A stretch of DNA of 59,762 nt from the IMG/VR virus record IMGVR_UViG_3300033148_002141, positions 1-59,762 of that record; one strand, 5' to 3'. Of the stretch, positions 3,069 to 13,925 are shown piece by piece (the first letter of the stretch is position 1; the number at the start of each line of letters is the position of its first letter). The DNA comes from a virus. Made by a program: the position numbers and the translations under genes. The notes under the pieces were generated by a model, which did no database searches, was not told where the DNA came from, and saw nothing but the letters and a program-made list of their open reading frames with translations.

Positions 3069-3250
3069 ACCCGAGGGCTTGTAAGTAGCCTCAAGCGCAG
3101 TCCAGGAGTAACCCTGTTTTGCCTTCAACGGCTCCTACCATAGGCCCTTTGACGAGGCCCTTTGAACGGATGTTTACCGCAGCCACGAAATCAGCATTGG
3201 CCGAGTAGCCGCAATGCTTACACGCAAACTCAGATTGACTCTTGCGATTG
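3052..3250 (-). ncRNA. Candidate omega-RNA of TnpB (3' portion)
   Basis: TnpB guide RNAs are read from the 3' end of tnpB through the right end, and the guide comes from flanking DNA. On the minus strand a hairpin, CCCUCGG-GUUUAGC-CCGGGGG (3058-3077 region), includes a U-G pair, so it pairs better as this RNA than as its complement. It is followed by GUAUUUGAC at the element border. Sequence just below 3049 would then be the guide. The 5' limit is a guess. Confidence 0.45.
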
Positions 3251-4197
3251 CCCTTCTCGCAATGCCCGCATTTTGGGCAGGTGCGACTGGTATTGCGCGG
3301 GTCAACCAGCATGACGAGCACACCGGCGAGCTTGGCCTTGTACTCAATAAAAGACCTCAGTTGGAAGAAAGCCCAACTACTGAACTTGGCCCGCTGGCTG
3401 CGTCGAACCGTTGTGCCCTTCCGGATTCCCTTGAGATTTTCAAGGACGATTGCGGAACGGGATGCCTTTGCTTTGCCAACGAGCCTTTTGCTGATTACGT
3501 GGTTCGTGTTCCTCTTGAAATTGGATTCCTTGCGTCTGATTTTGACGAGCCGACGTTTCGCCGACTTGGTGCCCACCGATTGCAGTACCGCCCGCCGGGT
3601 GGCGTACTTTACACGGTTGGCCTCGACCGCATCCCCGGAAAATGTCTCCCCGGTCGAGTCGGTGGCGATATTGACGATGCCCAGATCAACACCCAGTACG
3701 TCGGTAGGCTCCAAGGGTGCCCCGTCGGGCATTTCGATCGTACACAGCAGATAGAACTTGCGGTTGCGGTAGATCAGGTCTGCCTGACCCTTGATTCGAC
3801 CCTGGCGGTGCTTCTGGTACGCCCCGCACACGAACGGTATTCGGAGCCGGCCGGTCAATGCCCACAAGCTGACTTCCGTCAGACCCTTGAAGCTCAAAAC
3901 CCGCTGATCGTAGCAGATTGCCCCGCGCGGCTTGAACTTGGGACACTTACTTTTGTTCCGTTGGAAACACTCGACCGCCTTGGCAATGGCCCGAATGGCC
4001 ATCTGAGACGACAGGCCGAACTTTTCGCGGATGTCGTAGTAGGCCCGGCGGTGCAGGGAAACTTGCCCGAAGACCTTATCTCGGAACCCTACTTCCGCGG
4101 CATAGGTGGCGGCCTGGTTGAACCGCTCCATCGTGTCGAGCAGGTCTTTCTTCTGCTGGCGAGTTGGCAGAAGTTGCAGTTGGAGTGTGAGCTTCAT
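3091..4197 (-). CDS. tnpB: TnpB RNA-guided nuclease (IS605 OrfB family)
   Basis: 368 aa from ATG at 4197 (MKLTLQLQLLPTRQQ); the longer frame to 4302 is an upstream extension. N-terminal OrfB helix-turn-helix region, then a RuvC-like nuclease with the three acidic motifs visible: VLGVDLGIVN, IVLENLKGI and ANADFVAAVNI. A zinc ribbon CPKCGH...CKHCGY lies between motifs two and three. All catalytic acids appear intact. Family members are RNA-guided DNA nucleases that favour retention of their element. In a phage it might cut competing element-free genomes; that is inference. Confidence 0.93.
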   Translation of the reverse strand: MKLTLQLQLLPTRQQKKDLLDTMERFNQAATYAAEVGFRDKVFGQVSLHRRAYYDIREKFGLSSQMAIRAIAKAVECFQRNKSKCPKFKPRGAICYDQRVLSFKGLTEVSLWALTGRLRIPFVCGAYQKHRQGRIKGQADLIYRNRKFYLLCTIEMPDGAPLEPTDVLGVDLGIVNIATDSTGETFSGDAVEANRVKYATRRAVLQSVGTKSAKRRLVKIRRKESNFKRNTNHVISKRLVGKAKASRSAIVLENLKGIRKGTTVRRSQRAKFSSWAFFQLRSFIEYKAKLAGVLVMLVDPRNTSRTCPKCGHCEKGNRKSQSEFACKHCGYSANADFVAAVNIRSKGLVKGPMVGAVEGKTGLLLDCA

Positions 4198-4286
4198 ATT
4201 GGAAGTATACCCAAAACCAATCCTGTAGTCAAAGAAAGGACGCATTCTTCCGCCCACTAAAGTGGACGGTATCTTGCGTAACACAC

Positions 4287-4502
4287 ATGACACGAAAACC
4301 ACAAACCTTCGGCCAACGTGTTCGCGCTCTGCGCGGGGCTCGAACGCAAGATGAGTGCTGCCGGGCCGCCGGAATCACTCGGCAAAGCACTTGGTCCGAG
4401 ATCGAAACCGACAACGCGAATCCGACCCTTTCGACGCTACGCAAAATCGCCAAGGGCCTGGGATTCACGCTATCCGAACTGTTTGACGAGGCTGAATCCT
4501 GA
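4287..4502 (+). CDS. XRE/Cro-CI type helix-turn-helix regulator
   Basis: 71 aa from ATG 4287. A single HTH-XRE domain fills the protein: FGQRVRALRGARTQDECC, then AAGITRQSTWSEIETDNANP as turn and recognition helix, then LSTLRKIAKGLGFTLSELF. This is the size of small phage repressors or plasmid-type regulators. It is convergent with the small HTH gene at 4521-4775 and lies upstream of the palindromic element at 5267-5290. Which operator it binds cannot be read here. Confidence 0.85.
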   Translation: MTRKPQTFGQRVRALRGARTQDECCRAAGITRQSTWSEIETDNANPTLSTLRKIAKGLGFTLSELFDEAES

Positions 4503-4520: not shown

Positions 4521-4775
4521 TCAGAGCGTGCATGTCAGTTCCCCTGAGTTTTGGCCGACCGGCCCCATTCCCTGCGCCTGTCGCCGCTTATTTACCCAAT
4601 GCAAAATTGATTCGGCCGACCTGGGATCGTAATAGCCCTGCCTCGCATACTCGATCACCGTAGTCCGGGCCAACCCAGTCCACCGCGAAATGAGGGAATA
4701 AGTAAGATGGCAAAGTTTTTTCTCTGCCCCTTTGGGCTTTCGTGGCATTTTTTTTGGCATTTTCGCCCAATTCAT
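4521..4775 (-). CDS. Small HTH DNA-binding protein
   Basis: 84 aa from ATG 4775; a GTG at 4793 and ATGs at 4760 and 4748 are alternatives because no clear Shine-Dalgarno decides. A basic N-terminus (KMPRKPKGAEKK) precedes a helix-turn-helix-like segment, LISRWTGLARTTVIEYARQG, then YYDPRSAESILHWVNKRR. It is divergent from the promoter at 4787-4814, which lies immediately upstream of its start, so it may autoregulate or control that promoter. Confidence 0.65.
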   Translation of the reverse strand: MNWAKMPKKMPRKPKGAEKKLCHLTYSLISRWTGLARTTVIEYARQGYYDPRSAESILHWVNKRRQAQGMGPVGQNSGELTCTL

Positions 4776-4786
4776 CAAATCTGCTG

Positions 4787-4814
4787 TTGACACAACGCGT
4801 GAGTGTCGTATATT
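4787..4814 (+). promoter_or_regulatory. Sigma70-like promoter ahead of the interleaved hairpins
   Basis: TTGACA at 4787-4792 and TATATT at 4809-4814, spacer 16 (or TATTCT at 4811-4816 with spacer 18). It points into the hairpin leader and the small gene at 4926. Confidence 0.65.
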
Positions 4815-4832
4815 CTACAGGAACCACAACCG

Positions 4833-4912
4833 AAGGCAACCACCGTCTGAGCACCACCTGGCCTTGCCCGGATTCTTATGGTTGCCTTTCCCGCCGGGCA
4901 AGGCCGCTTTTT
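4833..4912 (+). terminator. Interleaved hairpins ending in a terminator (attenuator-like leader)
   Basis: Two perfect inverted repeats are interlocked in the order a-b-a'-b'. a is AAGGCAACCA (4833-4842) with a' TGGTTGCCTT (4879-4888). b is GGCCTTGCCCGG (4860-4871) with b' CCGGGCAAGGCC (4894-4905), followed by GC and five T (4908-4912). b:b' forms a strong intrinsic-terminator-like stem. a:a' either competes with it or makes an H-type pseudoknot. This is typical of conditional termination; the ligand or factor is unknown. Confidence 0.7.
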
Positions 4913-4925
4913 GAAAGGCCACCCC

Positions 4926-5153
4926 ATGAAACCCGTTTGGAAGAACGATCATCTCACTGTCGTGTTGCACAAGCCCGAATTGTCGATCTTGGCGAAAGCC
5001 CGCAAAATTGGGCAAGCATTGCACGCAATGGCTCAGGAAACAGGGCAGCCCTTGATGGACGCCATCGACGCCATTGCTCCCCATCCCGACATTATTGCCC
5101 GCCGTCCCGGCATTTGGGAGCAATTCTCGGACACACAGGCGGAAGAGGAATAG
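4926..5153 (+). CDS. Small hypothetical protein behind the attenuator-like leader
   Basis: 75 aa from ATG 4926, 14 bases past the terminator T-run. The sequence is largely helical (LSILAKARKIGQALHAMAQE) with an acidic C-terminus (SDTQAEEE) and no membrane segment. The leader suggests that its expression is conditional. It could be a small regulator or inhibitor; I do not recognise it. Confidence 0.65.
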   Translation: MKPVWKNDHLTVVLHKPELSILAKARKIGQALHAMAQETGQPLMDAIDAIAPHPDIIARRPGIWEQFSDTQAEEE

Positions 5154-5177
5154 GGCCGCCTTGCCCCGACCCTGCTT

Positions 5178-5200
5178 CCTGGGGGTCCACCCCCCAGGGG
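5178..5200 (+). terminator. GC-rich hairpin after the 4926 gene
   Basis: CCTGGGGG pairs with CCCCCAGG around a short loop. No T-run follows, so a Rho-independent terminator is not secure. It may insulate the small gene from the operon starting at 5314. Confidence 0.4.
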
Positions 5201-5239
5201 TAGGGCGGGGCCGATTGTTGTAACCTATTATGCCACCAT

Positions 5240-5290
5240 GACTTAAGTGCCCTCAAAGACGGTTTCAAAATGGCAACGCGGTGCCATTTT
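5240..5290 (+). promoter_or_regulatory. Bipartite palindromic control element, left copy
   Basis: GACTTAAGTGC (5240-5250), a 16-bp gap, then a near-perfect 24-bp palindrome (5267-5290) with core ATGGCAACGCGGTGCCAT. It lies 23 bp before the GTG of the Rad52-like gene. The same two parts with the same gap occur inverted at 59674-59724. It is probably an operator or promoter-operator for the rightward early operon. Confidence 0.75.
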
Positions 5291-5313
5291 GATTTCCATT
5301 CAAGGAGTGAATT

Positions 5314-6084
5314 GTGAGTGATTCGATCGACTTGGCGAAGCTCGCCGAACCATTCCCGCCAGAGGATATCGAATGGCGGGTCTCCCGTGCCGGCATGGGA
5401 AAAAACGGAATCTTTTGCTTGGTCCTCGCCTACATCACCGCCCGGGCAATTCAGAAGCGCCTCGATGAGGTGTGCGGTCCGGAAAACTGGAAGCTCGAAG
5501 AACCCCGAGTGGTAGAAGCCAACGGGAAATCGGCCTTCGCCTGTGGGCTCTCAATTCGTCTCCAAGGCGAATGGGTGACGAAATGGGATGTGAGCGAACC
5601 GACGAATGTCGAACCGGCCAAAGGTGGCTGGTCGGGTGCAATGAAGCGAGCCGGTGCCCAGTGGGGAATTGGTCGCTATCTCTACTATCTTGACGAAACC
5701 TTCGCCGAAGTCGTCGATCAGCCACTTGAAGGGGCTCGCGGATGGAATTACGCCCGCCTACCAGAAAAGCACGGCGGGGCTGTTTATTACTGGAAGACGC
5801 CAAGTCTGCCAGCCTGGGCCTTGCCGAAAGAACCGGAACACGAAATCAGCCTGGCCGAGCTTGGCGAATTAAAACGGGCGTGGATGGCAAAATTCGCGCC
5901 GAACACCACGAATCCCAAGGAATTGCGTGATGGATTTAGCAGCTTCGTCGTTTCGGTGGCTGGTGACTTCCCGGCATCCGATTACACCTGCTGGACCAGG
6001 GAGGCATTCGAGAAGTGTATGACGCGAATTGCCGAGACAACTGACCCGAATGGACCGGCAGCCGATGTGCCATTCGAGGAGTAG
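5314..6084 (+). CDS. Rad52/22-like single-strand annealing protein (phage recombinase)
   Basis: 256 aa from GTG 5314 (AAGGAG at 5302-5307). The Rad52/22-type core is clear: IEWRVSRAGMGKNG near residue 20, RLDEVCGPENW at 49-59, WVTKWDVSE near 87 and GGWSGAMKRAGAQWGIGRY at 104-122. The family forms rings that anneal complementary single strands, usually working with a 5'-3' exonuclease; one is encoded two genes downstream (6451). The C-terminal third is less conserved. First gene after the bipartite element, so it probably heads the early recombination and replication operon. Confidence 0.85.
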   Translation: MSDSIDLAKLAEPFPPEDIEWRVSRAGMGKNGIFCLVLAYITARAIQKRLDEVCGPENWKLEEPRVVEANGKSAFACGLSIRLQGEWVTKWDVSEPTNVEPAKGGWSGAMKRAGAQWGIGRYLYYLDETFAEVVDQPLEGARGWNYARLPEKHGGAVYYWKTPSLPAWALPKEPEHEISLAELGELKRAWMAKFAPNTTNPKELRDGFSSFVVSVAGDFPASDYTCWTREAFEKCMTRIAETTDPNGPAADVPFEE

Positions 6085-6450: not shown

Positions 6451-7638
6451 ATGAGCAGAACACGCAAGCGATTCCTCGATTGCTCCGGAATGACCATCGA
6501 GGAAGCCGAGCAGTGGGGCCGCGATCTGGCCGAAATGCAACGCGACATCATGTTTTGGATCGGCGACCTTGCCCGATATGCCGAGGCCCGTTGGCCAGAT
6601 ACGCACCACCAAGTCTGGCCCGAATGGGTCTCGCCCGGGATGCTGGCCCGGGCTGCCGCAGTCTGCCGGGCGTACCCCACCGAGGATAAGCGACAAGGGG
6701 ACGCCACCTACACGATCTACATGCGAGAGGCGAATCGGCCCGACCGGCTCAAACGAATACAGGCACACATTGACGCCGGCCGGACAAGCGATGAGGCGGC
6801 AAAGGCCAACCGCGAGCAACGACGTGCAAACGACCGCCCCCGGTGGCTGCTGGCGTTCGACGTGCATTACTTCGTCCATCGCACCTATTTCTCTGGCGCC
6901 GGGGTAGAAACCGCCCATCAAATTACGCAATGGGTCAAGCGGACCGTCGAACGGCTCCGGCAGAAAGGGGCCACGGACGTACTGTGTGCATTCGAGGGTC
7001 GGGATAGCTTCCGCCGCGAATTGACGGCCGGCGACGAATGGGAAGGGCACCGCTACAAGGATCGGCCACCGAAACCGGCCGACCTGACGCATCAACTCCA
7101 ACTGACGCGCACGCTCCTGGAACGAGACGGATTCTGTTGCGTTTCGGAAGACACATACGAAGCCGATGACATCTTGGCGAGTGCCGCCAAGCAATTCCCC
7201 GGCAAGACGACCATCGTGTCCGCCGACAAGGATTTACGCCAATGCCTGTGCGATCAGTGCAACATCCTGCTGGACGTGGAATGGACCGTGAATGAATTGA
7301 CGGGCGACGCCGAACCCCAATGGAAATGGCTTACCGCCAAATCGCACACCGAGGAAACCGGGCTTCCGCCGTATCTGTTTTGCGAAGTCCAGATTCTCCA
7401 AGGAGACCAAGTTGACGGAATCCAGGGGGCCGAGGGGATCGGCAAAAAGGGGGCCGTCGATCTGATTTTGGCTTTTGGCTCGGCCAAAAAGGCAATCCAG
7501 GCCGCGAAAGCCAATGACCCGCAAATCACAGCCAAGAAGCGCGAATCTCTTATTGCGTTTGAAAGCCGTCTGGACGTAACCAGGCAACTCGTCACGCTCG
7601 TGGATACCTTGCCTATCCCGAGCAATACCCGGATTTAG
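6451..7638 (+). CDS. 5'-3' exonuclease/FEN-like nuclease with extra N-terminal domain
   Basis: 395 aa. Residues about 130-395 are a flap endonuclease or T5-exonuclease type nuclease: LLAFDVHYFVHRTYF with D137, EADDIL at 237-242, SADKDLRQ at 257-264 and the H3TH DNA-binding motif GDQVDGIQGAEGIGKKGA at 318-335. These acidic residues bind the two metals. The first ~125 residues are an extra charged helical domain not usual in phage FENs, possibly a DNA- or partner-binding module. It probably resects 5' ends for the annealing protein. Confidence 0.88.
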   Translation: MSRTRKRFLDCSGMTIEEAEQWGRDLAEMQRDIMFWIGDLARYAEARWPDTHHQVWPEWVSPGMLARAAAVCRAYPTEDKRQGDATYTIYMREANRPDRLKRIQAHIDAGRTSDEAAKANREQRRANDRPRWLLAFDVHYFVHRTYFSGAGVETAHQITQWVKRTVERLRQKGATDVLCAFEGRDSFRRELTAGDEWEGHRYKDRPPKPADLTHQLQLTRTLLERDGFCCVSEDTYEADDILASAAKQFPGKTTIVSADKDLRQCLCDQCNILLDVEWTVNELTGDAEPQWKWLTAKSHTEETGLPPYLFCEVQILQGDQVDGIQGAEGIGKKGAVDLILAFGSAKKAIQAAKANDPQITAKKRESLIAFESRLDVTRQLVTLVDTLPIPSNTRI

Positions 7639-7651
7639 AAAGGGAAGTTCC

Positions 7652-7864
7652 ATGTTGGTTCTGGCACGGAAGCAAGGCGAAGTGATCCGAATCGGTGACG
7701 ACATTCGCGTAATGGTCGTATCCACTGGGCGCCAACAGGTGAAACTCGGAATCACCGCTCCCGAACACGTCGTGATTCTGCGTGAGGAAATCGCCGGCGA
7801 ATCCAGCCCCGCAGGGGAGCGCAGGAAGCGCAACGCATTGGACGCAGAAGGGGACGGGCACTGA
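7652..7864 (+). CDS. csrA: CsrA/RsmA-family mRNA-binding translational regulator
   Basis: 70 aa from ATG 7652 (AAAGGGAAG upstream). Canonical CsrA: MLVLARKQGEVIRIGDDIRV, then VKLGITAPEHVVILREEI. The N-terminal LxLxRKxGE and central GIxAPxxVxIxREEI strands that bind GGA motifs in mRNA leaders are intact. A charged tail of about 20 residues follows. It is co-directional with the nuclease and HNH genes. It could retune host carbon and motility mRNAs or time phage translation; which one is not visible here. Confidence 0.95.
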   Translation: MLVLARKQGEVIRIGDDIRVMVVSTGRQQVKLGITAPEHVVILREEIAGESSPAGERRKRNALDAEGDGH

Positions 7865-7904: not shown

Positions 7905-8378
7905 GTGAAACGGAAACGACGAAAACGAACCAGCGCGAACGTGCCGGCGAAAGGTCGCCTGCGCGACATCGCTGACAGGCTGTGGGCCCTGGCTGTACGC
8001 GAGGATTGGCTATGTCGATGTGCCGTGTGTGGGCGCCGCAAAACTGAATCTCACCACATGGTGCCCCGGCAGCATTACGCTACGCGGTATCTCTTGGAAA
8101 ACGGCATCGCCTTGTGTTCAACCCATCATCAATTTGACCCCAATATCAGCCCGCACCAAAACGCGGCCGGCTGGATGGCGTGGATGAAGGAGCATCATCC
8201 CTTTCGGGCGCAATGGTATCTCGAAAACTGTTGCCCACAATTCGACGGCATCACGAACGCCGCATACTACATCGAGCAGATTCAACGATTGCGGGAGTAC
8301 GTCGATCCGGATGACTTCGTTCGCATAGTCGGCGTTCGGTTTGCGGCTTACCTGGACGAATTACGCGAGAGAACGTGA
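7905..8378 (+). CDS. HNH-type nuclease, NinG/Rap-like
   Basis: 157 aa from GTG 7905 (GGGAGG at 7891-7896). Basic N-terminus, then a zinc/HNH motif CAVCGRRKTESHHMVPRQ with CSTHHQF about 35 residues later, which is the beta-beta-alpha-metal arrangement. Lambda NinG (Rap) proteins have a similar layout and cut branched recombination intermediates. The position in a recombination operon fits, but a plain HNH homing or restriction nuclease is also possible. Confidence 0.75.
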   Translation: MKRKRRKRTSANVPAKGRLRDIADRLWALAVREDWLCRCAVCGRRKTESHHMVPRQHYATRYLLENGIALCSTHHQFDPNISPHQNAAGWMAWMKEHHPFRAQWYLENCCPQFDGITNAAYYIEQIQRLREYVDPDDFVRIVGVRFAAYLDELRERT

Positions 8379-9406: not shown

Positions 9407-11002
9407 ATGGCCCAACAGGTAGAACTTCCCAGCTTGTACCCTCATCAAGAGGAGCAAAAGGACCGGCTCCGGGCCGCCCTGGCTGTGCACCGGCGGGCCA
9501 TTCTTTGCGCCCAAACGGGAGTCGGGAAAACCCGAGTATCGAAATGGATTCTCGGGGCATGTTTGAATCGGCCAGCTGGCGAACGAGCCAGCGGGCGATA
9601 CCTGTGGTGTGTTCACCGCCGGGGCCTGGTCGATAACGCCATCGCCTCATTCCAGGAAGAACCCGCCCTGCCCCACGGTGTAATCATGTCCGGCGAACCG
9701 ACGGCCTACGGGCGGAAAATACAGGTTGCGTCCATTGATTCCCTCTTGGCATGGTTCATTGATGAGAACGGTTACCGTACCGACATCACGTTCGACCTGG
9801 CCGTCATCGACGAAACCCACAGTCACCTGCAAAAATTCGCCCGATTCCTGAAATACCACGACGCCCAACGTGAAGCGATGGGCTTGCATCCCGCCTACGT
9901 AATCGGCCTGACGGCAACGCCGCAAGCCAAGGGGCTGGCGGACATCTACGGCACAATCGTCAAGGGGCAATCCACCCAGTGGCTGATCGACAATGGCTAC
10001 CTATGCCCCTTCCGCTATTTCGGAGCCACCCAAGGCAAGCTCGGTCTGCTCGTCAAGCGGGGCGGGGAGTTCACCAAGGCGTCTGAATCCGCCGCGATGG
10101 AATCTCTGGCTGGAAACCTTGTGGAGGATTGGAAGCGATTCGGCGAAGGGCGTCCGACTGTCGGGTTCTTTCCCCGACGCTCCCATGCCCGGGACGCCAT
10201 GCGGGCCTTTGCCGAGGCCGGATTGCGAGTGGAATACGTCGATGGGAATACGCCGGATGATGAACGCCGCCGCATCTTTCGTTGGCTGAATGAGCATCGA
10301 ATCGACTACCTCTGCAATGTCCAAGTGGTTGAACGAGGGACCGACATTCCCCGCATCGCCTGTATTCAGTTGTGTGTCGCTACCGCGTCTGTTGTCCGGT
10401 GCCGCCAGATGATCGGCCGAGGGAGCCGAGTCCATCCCGACAAGACGGATACTGTCATCATAGACCACGGCGGGAATATCGCCCGCTGCGGATTCTTCGA
10501 GGACGACCCCGATTGGACGCTCGACATCACCACGAAAGACCCGGGGGAAGCCAAGGCCCGGCCCACGATCGAATGTCCCAAGTGCCAGGCGATCTATCGG
10601 GGTGGGCGGTGCCGGAATTGCGGCTACGAACCCACCCCTGCTGAACGACGTGCGAGAGGGCTCCAATTCGATGGCTCGGCCCTGCGTGAACTCACCCCAG
10701 AGAAGCCGAAACCTGTTCGATCCGCCGAAGAATTGATGGTCAAGGCGCTCTACATGGCTGGAAGATCAGGCCGGACGTGGCGGCAGTGTTGCGGCATATT
10801 CCGGGGCATGAATCAGAGGCAGGGAACCAATTATCGCGTCCCCTCGATTGTCACCATAGGCGGACGCCGCTACAGAATGATTCGGTACGGCTCCCCCGAT
10901 GCCAACCGGCGGGTGTCGGCCGTGTATCCATTCACTCGCCGTAGAGGTGAGCATGGCGGCGAATACCTGATCGACGAACCTGTTGCAGCCGCGCCTTATT
11001 GA
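9407..11002 (+). CDS. Superfamily 2 DEAD/DEAH-type helicase
   Basis: 531 aa from ATG 9407; the frame opens at 9344, inside the previous gene. Walker A QTGVGKT at 36-42, Walker B VIDETH at 133-138, motif III-like GLTATPQ, and motif VI QMIGRGSRVHPDK. A zinc ribbon CPKCQAIYRGGRCRNCGYEP (about 387-406) and an extra C-terminal domain follow. It resembles RadD/UvsW-type phage and bacterial helicases that remodel branched DNA, which fits the recombination genes before it. Confidence 0.88.
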   Translation: MAQQVELPSLYPHQEEQKDRLRAALAVHRRAILCAQTGVGKTRVSKWILGACLNRPAGERASGRYLWCVHRRGLVDNAIASFQEEPALPHGVIMSGEPTAYGRKIQVASIDSLLAWFIDENGYRTDITFDLAVIDETHSHLQKFARFLKYHDAQREAMGLHPAYVIGLTATPQAKGLADIYGTIVKGQSTQWLIDNGYLCPFRYFGATQGKLGLLVKRGGEFTKASESAAMESLAGNLVEDWKRFGEGRPTVGFFPRRSHARDAMRAFAEAGLRVEYVDGNTPDDERRRIFRWLNEHRIDYLCNVQVVERGTDIPRIACIQLCVATASVVRCRQMIGRGSRVHPDKTDTVIIDHGGNIARCGFFEDDPDWTLDITTKDPGEAKARPTIECPKCQAIYRGGRCRNCGYEPTPAERRARGLQFDGSALRELTPEKPKPVRSAEELMVKALYMAGRSGRTWRQCCGIFRGMNQRQGTNYRVPSIVTIGGRRYRMIRYGSPDANRRVSAVYPFTRRRGEHGGEYLIDEPVAAAPY

Positions 11003-12254: not shown

Positions 12255-12824
12255 ATGCTCACCCTAAACGAGATTCTCGACCAATTACATGTGTGTAGCG
12301 AAGCCCGCCAGTGGGCCGCCACACAACCGGACGCCCGAACGGCGTGGTGCAATTGCCCGCGCGGTGATCGGTTGATTTGGCTGGCGGGTATGCTCGGCAT
12401 TGATCGCAAGACAATTGCTGCCGCAGTTTGTGATTGCGTCGAATTGGCGTTGCCATTCGTGATTAAACACAACGAGCGCCCACGGAACGCCATCACTGTG
12501 ACGCGGGCGCGGCTTGCAGGCGAGGCAACACTGGAGGATTTACGGGCCGCCGCCGCTGCCGCCGACGATGCCGCCGACGCTGCCTGGGCCAAAGCCGCCT
12601 GGGCCGACGCTGCCTGGGCCAAAGCCGCCTCGGCCGCCGCCGCTGCCGCCGAAGACGTCACCTGGACCGCCGCCTCGGCTACTGCCGCCGTTGCCTGGAC
12701 CGTTGCCGCCGCTCCGGCTGATGCTAGAAGCGACGTACTTAAGCAATGCGCTGACATCGTGCGGTCGCGAATCACGTGGGAGCAGATTGCAGACGGAATT
12801 GAGAACACCTTTCCTTCAGCCTGA
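12255..12824 (+). CDS. Ala-rich WAA-repeat protein, copy 2
   Basis: 189 aa from ATG 12255, preceded by the same kind of leader as copy 1. The first ~100 nt are nearly identical to the gene at 11671, showing recent duplication. The repeat block (DAAWAKAAWADAAWAKAA) differs in phase and composition while the ends are conserved, so the repeat core evolves faster. C-terminus LKQCADIVRSRITWEQIADG. Function unknown. Confidence 0.8.
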   Translation: MLTLNEILDQLHVCSEARQWAATQPDARTAWCNCPRGDRLIWLAGMLGIDRKTIAAAVCDCVELALPFVIKHNERPRNAITVTRARLAGEATLEDLRAAAAAADDAADAAWAKAAWADAAWAKAASAAAAAAEDVTWTAASATAAVAWTVAAAPADARSDVLKQCADIVRSRITWEQIADGIENTFPSA

Positions 12825-12837
12825 CGGGAACAATACG

Positions 12838-13101
12838 ATGTGCAATGATTCCACAAATGAAGTCACTATGCTTCTGGATATTACTCGTGACTTCATCTGC
12901 ACATATGGTGGACCGACGAATGTGTGTGCGAGCGGCGATAGACTTGGTGACGCGCTGGAAGATGGCGAATGCCGCCGCTTCTTGACGGACATTGCTGCAA
13001 GCGAGGACAGTGCCAGGCAACTTTGTGCGACGGCATTGCTGGGATTGAGTCTCGCCATGCTCGTGATTGAATTCGATGCAGAACACGCGGAGGCGAATTG
13101 A
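12838..13101 (+). CDS. Small hypothetical protein, paralogue of 16575-16841
   Basis: 87 aa from ATG 12838. It shares DGECRRFL, ARQLCATALLGL and the C-terminal AEAN with the gene at 16575. A hydrophobic helix near the C-terminus (LCATALLGLSLAMLVIEF) could insert in a membrane. The stop overlaps an ATG that opens a 10-codon remnant (13101-13133), which looks like the stub of the Cys-coil gene following the paralogue at 16841. Confidence 0.7.
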   Translation: MCNDSTNEVTMLLDITRDFICTYGGPTNVCASGDRLGDALEDGECRRFLTDIAASEDSARQLCATALLGLSLAMLVIEFDAEHAEAN

Positions 13102-13133
13102 TGGGCACGAAGACGCCTTGCGATTACGACTGA
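13101..13133 (+). pseudogene. Ten-codon stub of a Cys/coiled-coil gene
   Basis: ATG at 13101 overlaps the stop of the 12838 gene exactly as ATG 16841 overlaps the stop of 16575-16841. Only MGTKTPCDYD is encoded before a stop, against 127 aa in the intact copy. It is best read as a truncated duplicate. Confidence 0.45.
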
Positions 13134-13166
13134 CCACTCGCCTTGGTCCTAAAGGAGACCTCAGCT

Positions 13167-13925
13167 ATGTGCAATTTTTTGAGTGCCATTGTTATCAAGC
13201 CGAAACCCGGCGATTCGCCCGAGGTCTATTGCGATCCGGAACATACGGATTCGCATGAAGACCTAATCGCCAATCGGGGGTTGGCCGACAACGGCCGGGG
13301 AGGATTCGTGCGGGTCGAGCTAACGTTATCCAGCCTCGACTATGCCGACCTGGAAGCCTACACGTTGCGGATCGACTGCCTGCACAGGCCCGAATGGTTC
13401 GACGAACAAGCCGGCGCGCGAGTCGAACATATCCTCCGTGGGTGCATCAAGCGAATGCTCGTGGACGATCAGCGCGATATGTTATTGGGGGGCTGCTGGA
13501 TTTTACACAACGCGGCCCATATTAAGCGAGTACACAACGCTCGAATCGTGGCCATGCAAGATTCGGCACGCATCGGCGAAGTGCGTGGCGTGGCTTGGAT
13601 CGACAGGATGCTGGATTCCGCTCGGATCGAGAGGATGCTGGACTCGACTCGAATTGGCGCGATGTGGGATTCGGCGCGGGTAGACAGGATGCTGGGCTCG
13701 GCGCGGGTCGATAGGATGTTGCACTTGGCTCAGGTCGGTGAGATGTGGGGCTCGGCGCGGGTCCGCGAGATGCTGGACTCGGCGCGGATCGGCGAGATGT
13801 GGGACTCGACTCGGATCGACAGGATGCGTGACTTAACTCGGATCGACAGGATGCTGGATTCGGCTCGGGTCGTTGCCATGCACAATTCAGCGCGCATAGC
13901 AAACTATCGCCCTTGGCGCGGGTAG
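13167..13925 (+). CDS. Nonapeptide-repeat protein (D-S-A-R-I-x-x-M-x units)
   Basis: 252 aa from ATG 13167 (AAAGGAGACC upstream at 13151). A globular N-terminus (about 1-115; CNFLSAIVIKPKPGD) precedes about 14 nine-residue units such as SARIERMLD and SARVDRMLG up to the C-terminus. The regular hydrophobic I/V and M positions suggest a beta-helix. DNA in this part has a 27-bp period. Similar nonad repeats are seen in uncharacterised phage proteins. Role unknown. Confidence 0.8.
   Translation: MCNFLSAIVIKPKPGDSPEVYCDPEHTDSHEDLIANRGLADNGRGGFVRVELTLSSLDYADLEAYTLRIDCLHRPEWFDEQAGARVEHILRGCIKRMLVDDQRDMLLGGCWILHNAAHIKRVHNARIVAMQDSARIGEVRGVAWIDRMLDSARIERMLDSTRIGAMWDSARVDRMLGSARVDRMLHLAQVGEMWGSARVREMLDSARIGEMWDSTRIDRMRDLTRIDRMLDSARVVAMHNSARIANYRPWRG

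Follow-up and report, generated by a model that had tools for sequence, protein, structure and literature searches.

The window, by which we mean the whole stretch of 59,762 nucleotides analysed here, is the record of an uncultivated virus and has genes for portal-like and capsid-like proteins and for a serine recombinase. An Erf/Rad52 gene (5314–6084) lies just 3' of the leader region described below, and a 5'–3' exonuclease is also encoded. On the minus strand a small HTH-like gene (4521–4760) begins 26 nt before the −35 box of the leader promoter and points away from it; homologous divergent genes stand at the equivalent place in two other phages, G012 and L093 (38–49% identity among the three). 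Behind the leader, on the plus strand, is an ORF of 75 aa (4926–5153) whose beta-alpha structural model is of low confidence (pLDDT 67). The first-pass annotation of this DNA had assigned it to no known family, in keeping with which no homologue was detected in IMG/VR, phages or GTDB genomes; the sole GTDB match (L040) was a false positive lying antisense to an aminotransferase-like ORF. The interval that separates the 75-aa gene from the Erf/Rad52 gene holds two more strong hairpins (5163–5214 and 5265–5292), and the second one (TCAAAATGGCA..TGCCATTTTGA) directly precedes the Shine–Dalgarno (SD) sequence of the Erf/Rad52 gene. On the other side a TnpB-like gene (3091–4302, minus strand, with Cas12f1-like TNB and OrfB_IS605 domains) adjoins the early region and is unconnected with the leader, a 71-aa HTH protein is encoded at 4287–4502, and 37–1035 and 1663–2742 encode a paralogous protein pair with W-x-x-G type repeats (GGTWINGEWHGG...) and a shared C-terminal domain.

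Anatomy of the leader

The leader starts with a sigma-70-type promoter on the plus strand (4787–4814), made up of TTGACA (4787–4792), a 16-nt spacer and TATATT (4809–4814), which matches consensus at 11 of 12 positions and has its counterpart at the equivalent relative place in the other copies. It is followed by two interlocked inverted repeats in the order a-b-a'-b'. Arm a (GAAGGCAACCA, 4832–4842) pairs with arm a' (TGGTTGCCTTT, 4879–4889, located by an inverted-repeat search) through 11 pairs including one G-U, around a perfect core in which 4833–4842 (AAGGCAACCA) matches 4879–4888 at 10 of 10 positions. Arm b (TGGCCTTGCCCGG, 4859–4871) likewise pairs with arm b' (CCGGGCAAGGCCG, 4894–4906) through 13 pairs including one G-U, and the perfect core here is 12/12 (4860–4871, GGCCTTGCCCGG, with 4894–4905). 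Loop L1 (CCGTCTGAGCACCACC, 4843–4858) is A/C-rich and shares GAGCAC with G012 and L093; at loop L2 (ATTCTTA, 4872–4878) most copies have either TTCT or ATCTGC; and linker L3 (CCCG, 4890–4893) measures 0–7 nt in most copies when b is counted with its extension. Arm b' forms the 3' half of a candidate terminator, being followed by GC and a T5 tract (4908–4912), although the 22-nt loop of b:b' is long for an intrinsic terminator. The SD sequence GAAAGG (4913–4918) is part of an a-like sequence (GAAAGGCCACC, 4913–4923) that could pair with a' in place of a but is not consistently found in other copies, and the ATG of the 75-aa ORF is at 4926. The promoter, the perfect repeats and the T5 tract before this gene, all noted in the first-pass annotation, were borne out by sequence, repeat and promoter searches, and its statement that, barring a pseudoknot, only one of the repeats can form fully holds in the sense that both cannot form in a simple nested fold.

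Short repeats present in two copies are common, and interlocks with 8-bp arms arose in dinucleotide shuffles of the window at 0.75 per shuffle, so that chance complementarity in GC-rich DNA has to be considered. When all perfect inverted repeats were taken, the leader was the only interlocked pair in the window with arms of at least 9. Such pairs occurred 0.1 times per shuffle, and an interlock with both arms of at least 10 was absent from all 40 shuffles, as against the arms of 10 and 12 seen here.

Copies in related phages

Relatives were collected by a search with the window helicase (9407–10999), which gave phages 61–72% identical in that protein, and were searched for interlocked repeats blind to sequence. 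The same layout of promoter, a-b-a'-b' and start codon was found with other stem letters and before different genes. One phage, L041, carries two leaders with a shared flank at 12395 and 13038, each with a promoter, T6 and SD-ATG; these twins (12374–12535 and 13017–13172) are 640 bp apart and have near-identical flanks, and their stems, with about half of the pairs changed, look as though pushed to differ. The protein behind the first twin (12514–12771, GQKVTLFCLVYIYTGVLSGVNEHDVELTDP) has by eye an Sm/Hfq-type fold, without a Pfam match. In L042/L043 a copy at 6801 precedes a NinG-like gene and another at 7999 a gene that, by reading, is ParB-like. In G012 one copy is carried by L081 (minus strand), and a further copy in G010 has no gene close behind. 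A search pattern built from the window and G012 leaders then led to L093, a phage record without the window-type helicase that yet carries the leader; its genome has an additional copy in L101 (minus strand, 989–912). The G010 and L101 copies lack a clear downstream start and stand outside the seven counted below. Pattern matches in L094, L095 and L097 were rejected as chance, resembling the coding sequence of one tail-type gene. In the helicase gene of another relative, L044 (from about 9968), the coding sequence seems to be split by an in-frame, intein-like insertion (CCVAAGTMILTDRGEV... to ...NGAIVANC).

Other routes to the leader gave less. Among relatives collected through Rad52 the nearest two (L004 and L005) are without it, and the others had no copy in the full scan; the exact b/b' hairpin was not found in IMG/VR; a search for DNA similarity in phages and plasmids returned nothing useful; and a search anchored on the HTH-like gene for additional copies returned G012 and L093 only. 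Copies fall in the early recombination and replication gene block of the related phages, and those of L041 and L042 precede other genes elsewhere in this block, so the leader is not tied to the HTH gene. Of the earlier suggestion of a lysis/lysogeny or early-gene switch, the early-gene part thus agrees with the position of the copies, and for the lysis/lysogeny part the only evidence is that the window, G012 and L093 have the divergent HTH-like gene.

A scan for the full architecture, in which a match needed an interlock together with a promoter and an SD-preceded start codon, gave exactly seven matches in the family genomes, all scoring at least 50. Other phage loci (0.89 Mb, both strands) gave none; 12 shuffled family sets gave on average one match each, with a top score of 49.5. 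When a promoter and T tract were required but not a start codon, there were six matches against 0.4 per shuffled set. At least five T within 10 nt after b' were present in six of the seven scanned copies, compared with a background of 4.3%. It should be noted that the score threshold and filters were fixed after the first copies had been seen, and these figures show enrichment as distinct from a pre-registered test.

Covariation of the two helices

As the scan favours complementarity by design, counts of covariation are valid only where homology rests on other sequence, which is the case for the L041 twins and for the window, G012 and L093. In the twins homology is established from flanks outside the stems (GCTATGTTTACCAGAAGTTC and TTTTTTATTGG are identical), with 20 identical bases before a and 11 after b'. 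With the unpaired stretch that joins the outer to the inner b:b' helix left out, 12 of the 23 compared stem pairs differ and all are compensated: a:a' has four double changes in 11 pairs and b:b' eight in 12 (3/7 outer, 5/5 inner), with no pair broken in either. Between the window and G012 all 23 compared pairs are kept despite nine double changes (two in 10 pairs of a:a' and seven in 13 of b:b', none broken), the b arms being matched by position since their sequences cannot be aligned. Between G012 and L093, where one change is double and three are one-sided, all 27 pairs are kept. Since MAFFT did not align arm a correctly across these two and the window, pairs were counted on a hand structural alignment. 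Covariation in homologues had been named beforehand as the observation to look for, and it is present in all three comparisons. Compensated changes without broken pairs indicate that both helices are under selection. We regard it as almost certain that the leader represents a genuine RNA family, and recurrence in the scan relative to the shuffled sets, together with covariation, refutes chance complementarity, to which we give a negligible probability.

In the window and the L041 twins the helices are not spanned by any frame that has a usual start, so coding cannot explain the covariation there. This bears on ribosome-controlled attenuation through a leader peptide, of the trp or erm type. 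G012, L093 and L101 do have an SD-like sequence and an ATG at the a/L1 boundary that open a mini-ORF, but between the −10 box and b there is no ATG, GTG or TTG in the window or in either twin, and the twin helices covary though no shared frame with a usual start spans them. A leader peptide in the window would require a non-canonical start (CTG in L1); for lack of a usual start codon it is excluded for the window, and for the leader in general we consider it highly improbable. An element acting as DNA (an operator, or a recombination or single-strand structure) would agree with the presence of inverted repeats on both strands and with the small HTH-like gene divergent in three phages. Against this, the copies lie between promoter and gene in one orientation with the T tract on the coding strand, and G-U pairs are tolerated in b:b' of G012 and L093, which fits RNA; a DNA-level element is thus very unlikely.

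Mechanism and relation to described elements

We incline to the view that the window leader is a promoter-proximal transcription attenuator, most likely serving the gene behind it as an early stop/go switch. Polymerase would first make a, b and a', upon which hairpin a:a' would form; about 17 nt later b' would emerge, and the 13-pair b:b' helix with U5 could displace a:a' and end transcription before the 75-aa gene. A factor holding a:a', should one exist, would let transcription pass, and would probably contact the more constant loops L1 and L2. The predicted folding order fits such an attenuator: for RNA ending at a', the predicted probability of a:a' is 0.89–0.99 in all seven copies, and once b' is included b:b' becomes the predominant helix in five of the seven, the window among them (0.91), while a:a' is predicted to remain dominant in the second L041 twin. 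In a nested model of the full window transcript a:a' is ahead again (0.86 vs 0.08 for b:b'). Several features expected of an attenuator are present, in that a promoter stands shortly upstream and a gene shortly downstream, the GC hairpin b:b' in the window is followed by GC-T5, and the earlier hairpin is under selection and, as far as nested folds go, exclusive with the terminator. Clear T runs follow b' in the window, both L041 twins, L101 and G010, with a weaker one in L042_1; the tract is weak or poor in L093 and L042_2 and missing in G012. Intrinsic termination consequently cannot be the rule for every copy; what the copies share is the helix pair, and the output may differ between them. 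The attenuator or riboswitch logic suggested in the first-pass annotation is accordingly retained for its attenuator half, with which the folding order agrees, and nothing points to a metabolite ligand.

The copies without a T tract may also be read as favouring a pseudoknot in which both helices exist at once as the functional unit, for example as a protein-binding operator or a 5' mRNA stabiliser, with termination incidental. Both helices covary, L2 is never below 5–7 nt and L3 is 0–7 nt in most copies, the total paired length is 23–28 bp, the distance from the end of b' to the ATG is 18–26 nt in all seven gene-bearing copies, and phage T4 gene 32 offers a precedent in its 5' pseudoknot acting as a translational operator (PMC535899). 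On geometrical grounds, however, an L3 of 0–2 nt in several copies together with 11–13 pairs in a:a' would make a classical coaxial H-type fold doubtful, the alternative stacking would need an L1 of 10–13 nt to cross about 25 pairs, and the T-rich tail seen in six of seven copies would be superfluous. We therefore hold the pseudoknot to be possible but on the unlikely side.

A translational switch, in which a' pairs with the SD region (GAAAGGCCACC) and masks it unless a captures a', is suggested by the match of the window a' to 4913–4923 at 10 of 11 positions and by partial likeness in L042_1 and G012. The L041 copies, however, have no a-like SD sequence, and predicted SD exposure in the window is 0.56 with a:a' enforced vs 0.58 with b:b'. 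Exposure changes by at most 0.10–0.16 in five of the seven copies, and a:a' favours exposure in L093 and L042_2 only. Since exposure in the window is independent of the imposed helix and does not move much in most copies, masking of the SD sequence is unlikely to be the general mechanism.

Returning to the attenuator, intrinsic-terminator attenuators with a competing antiterminator include the LicT/SacY RAT, TRAP and T-box types. The leader resembles these in being promoter-proximal, in having an early hairpin that overlaps a later GC hairpin and U tract, and in having a gene just behind, but it has no recognised antiterminator sequence, tRNA site or protein site, its stems vary freely and several copies are without a U tract. 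Pseudoknot riboswitches (preQ1, SAM-II, fluoride) combine short stems with a conserved aptamer core. The leader shares with them interlocked helices coupled to a terminator or SD sequence, whereas its copies have only loose loop motifs in common and Rfam gave no match. The T4/RB69 gene 32 operator, too, lies in a phage 5' leader and has interlocked pairing upstream of the SD sequence (PMC535899); its pseudoknot takes up about 28 nt, with an unstructured UUAAA region after it (PMC535899), whereas in the leader described here the stems have 10–17 pairs, L3 is short and the predicted effect on SD exposure is not consistent. STAXI and c4 antisense RNA (PMC2864571; Rfam RF01695 = c4) are likewise structured RNAs linked to phages. 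STAXI, for the most part a pseudoknot, occurs close to genes for DNA-handling proteins in tandem arrays of two or three units (PMC2864571), in contrast to the single unit per leader here, and Rfam matched the leader to neither. From such phage-linked pseudoknots as STAXI and the gene 32 operator the leader differs in repeat structure, stem length and position. Indeed Rfam searches with the leader gave only chance-level scores far below the gathering scores, as expected from the earlier remark that it matches no recognised class. Attenuator-like working is thus supported and membership in a described family is not, and the leader is apparently an undescribed RNA control element.

The family, found in a group of uncultivated phages, is a short cassette in which a promoter, a-b-a'-b' and a start codon stand before different, mostly small genes. 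We put forward tentatively that the class is a transferable cassette, a promoter plus a switch set before unrelated early genes, with loops recognised by a phage or host factor and two long stems free to change their sequence completely as long as they pair. To our knowledge, phages of uncultivated bacteria have so far yielded few cis-acting RNA switches. A leader with clear covariation, before different genes and twice in one genome with diverged stems, is directly testable, and the family can be used in seeking a shared phage regulator. Such RNAs escape scans that rely on sequence similarity or on one nested fold; the nested-fold z-score of the leader region is an unremarkable −1.17 because nested folding scores only one of the two interlocked helices. 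Binding of CsrA was considered since the phage encodes this protein, but was rejected as the GGA motifs of the leaders are, by reading, inconsistent in number and place. The csrA gene of the window lies at 7652–7864 (PF02599, E 1.7e-20), and CsrA-like genes are present in L041, L042/L043 and L044 too.
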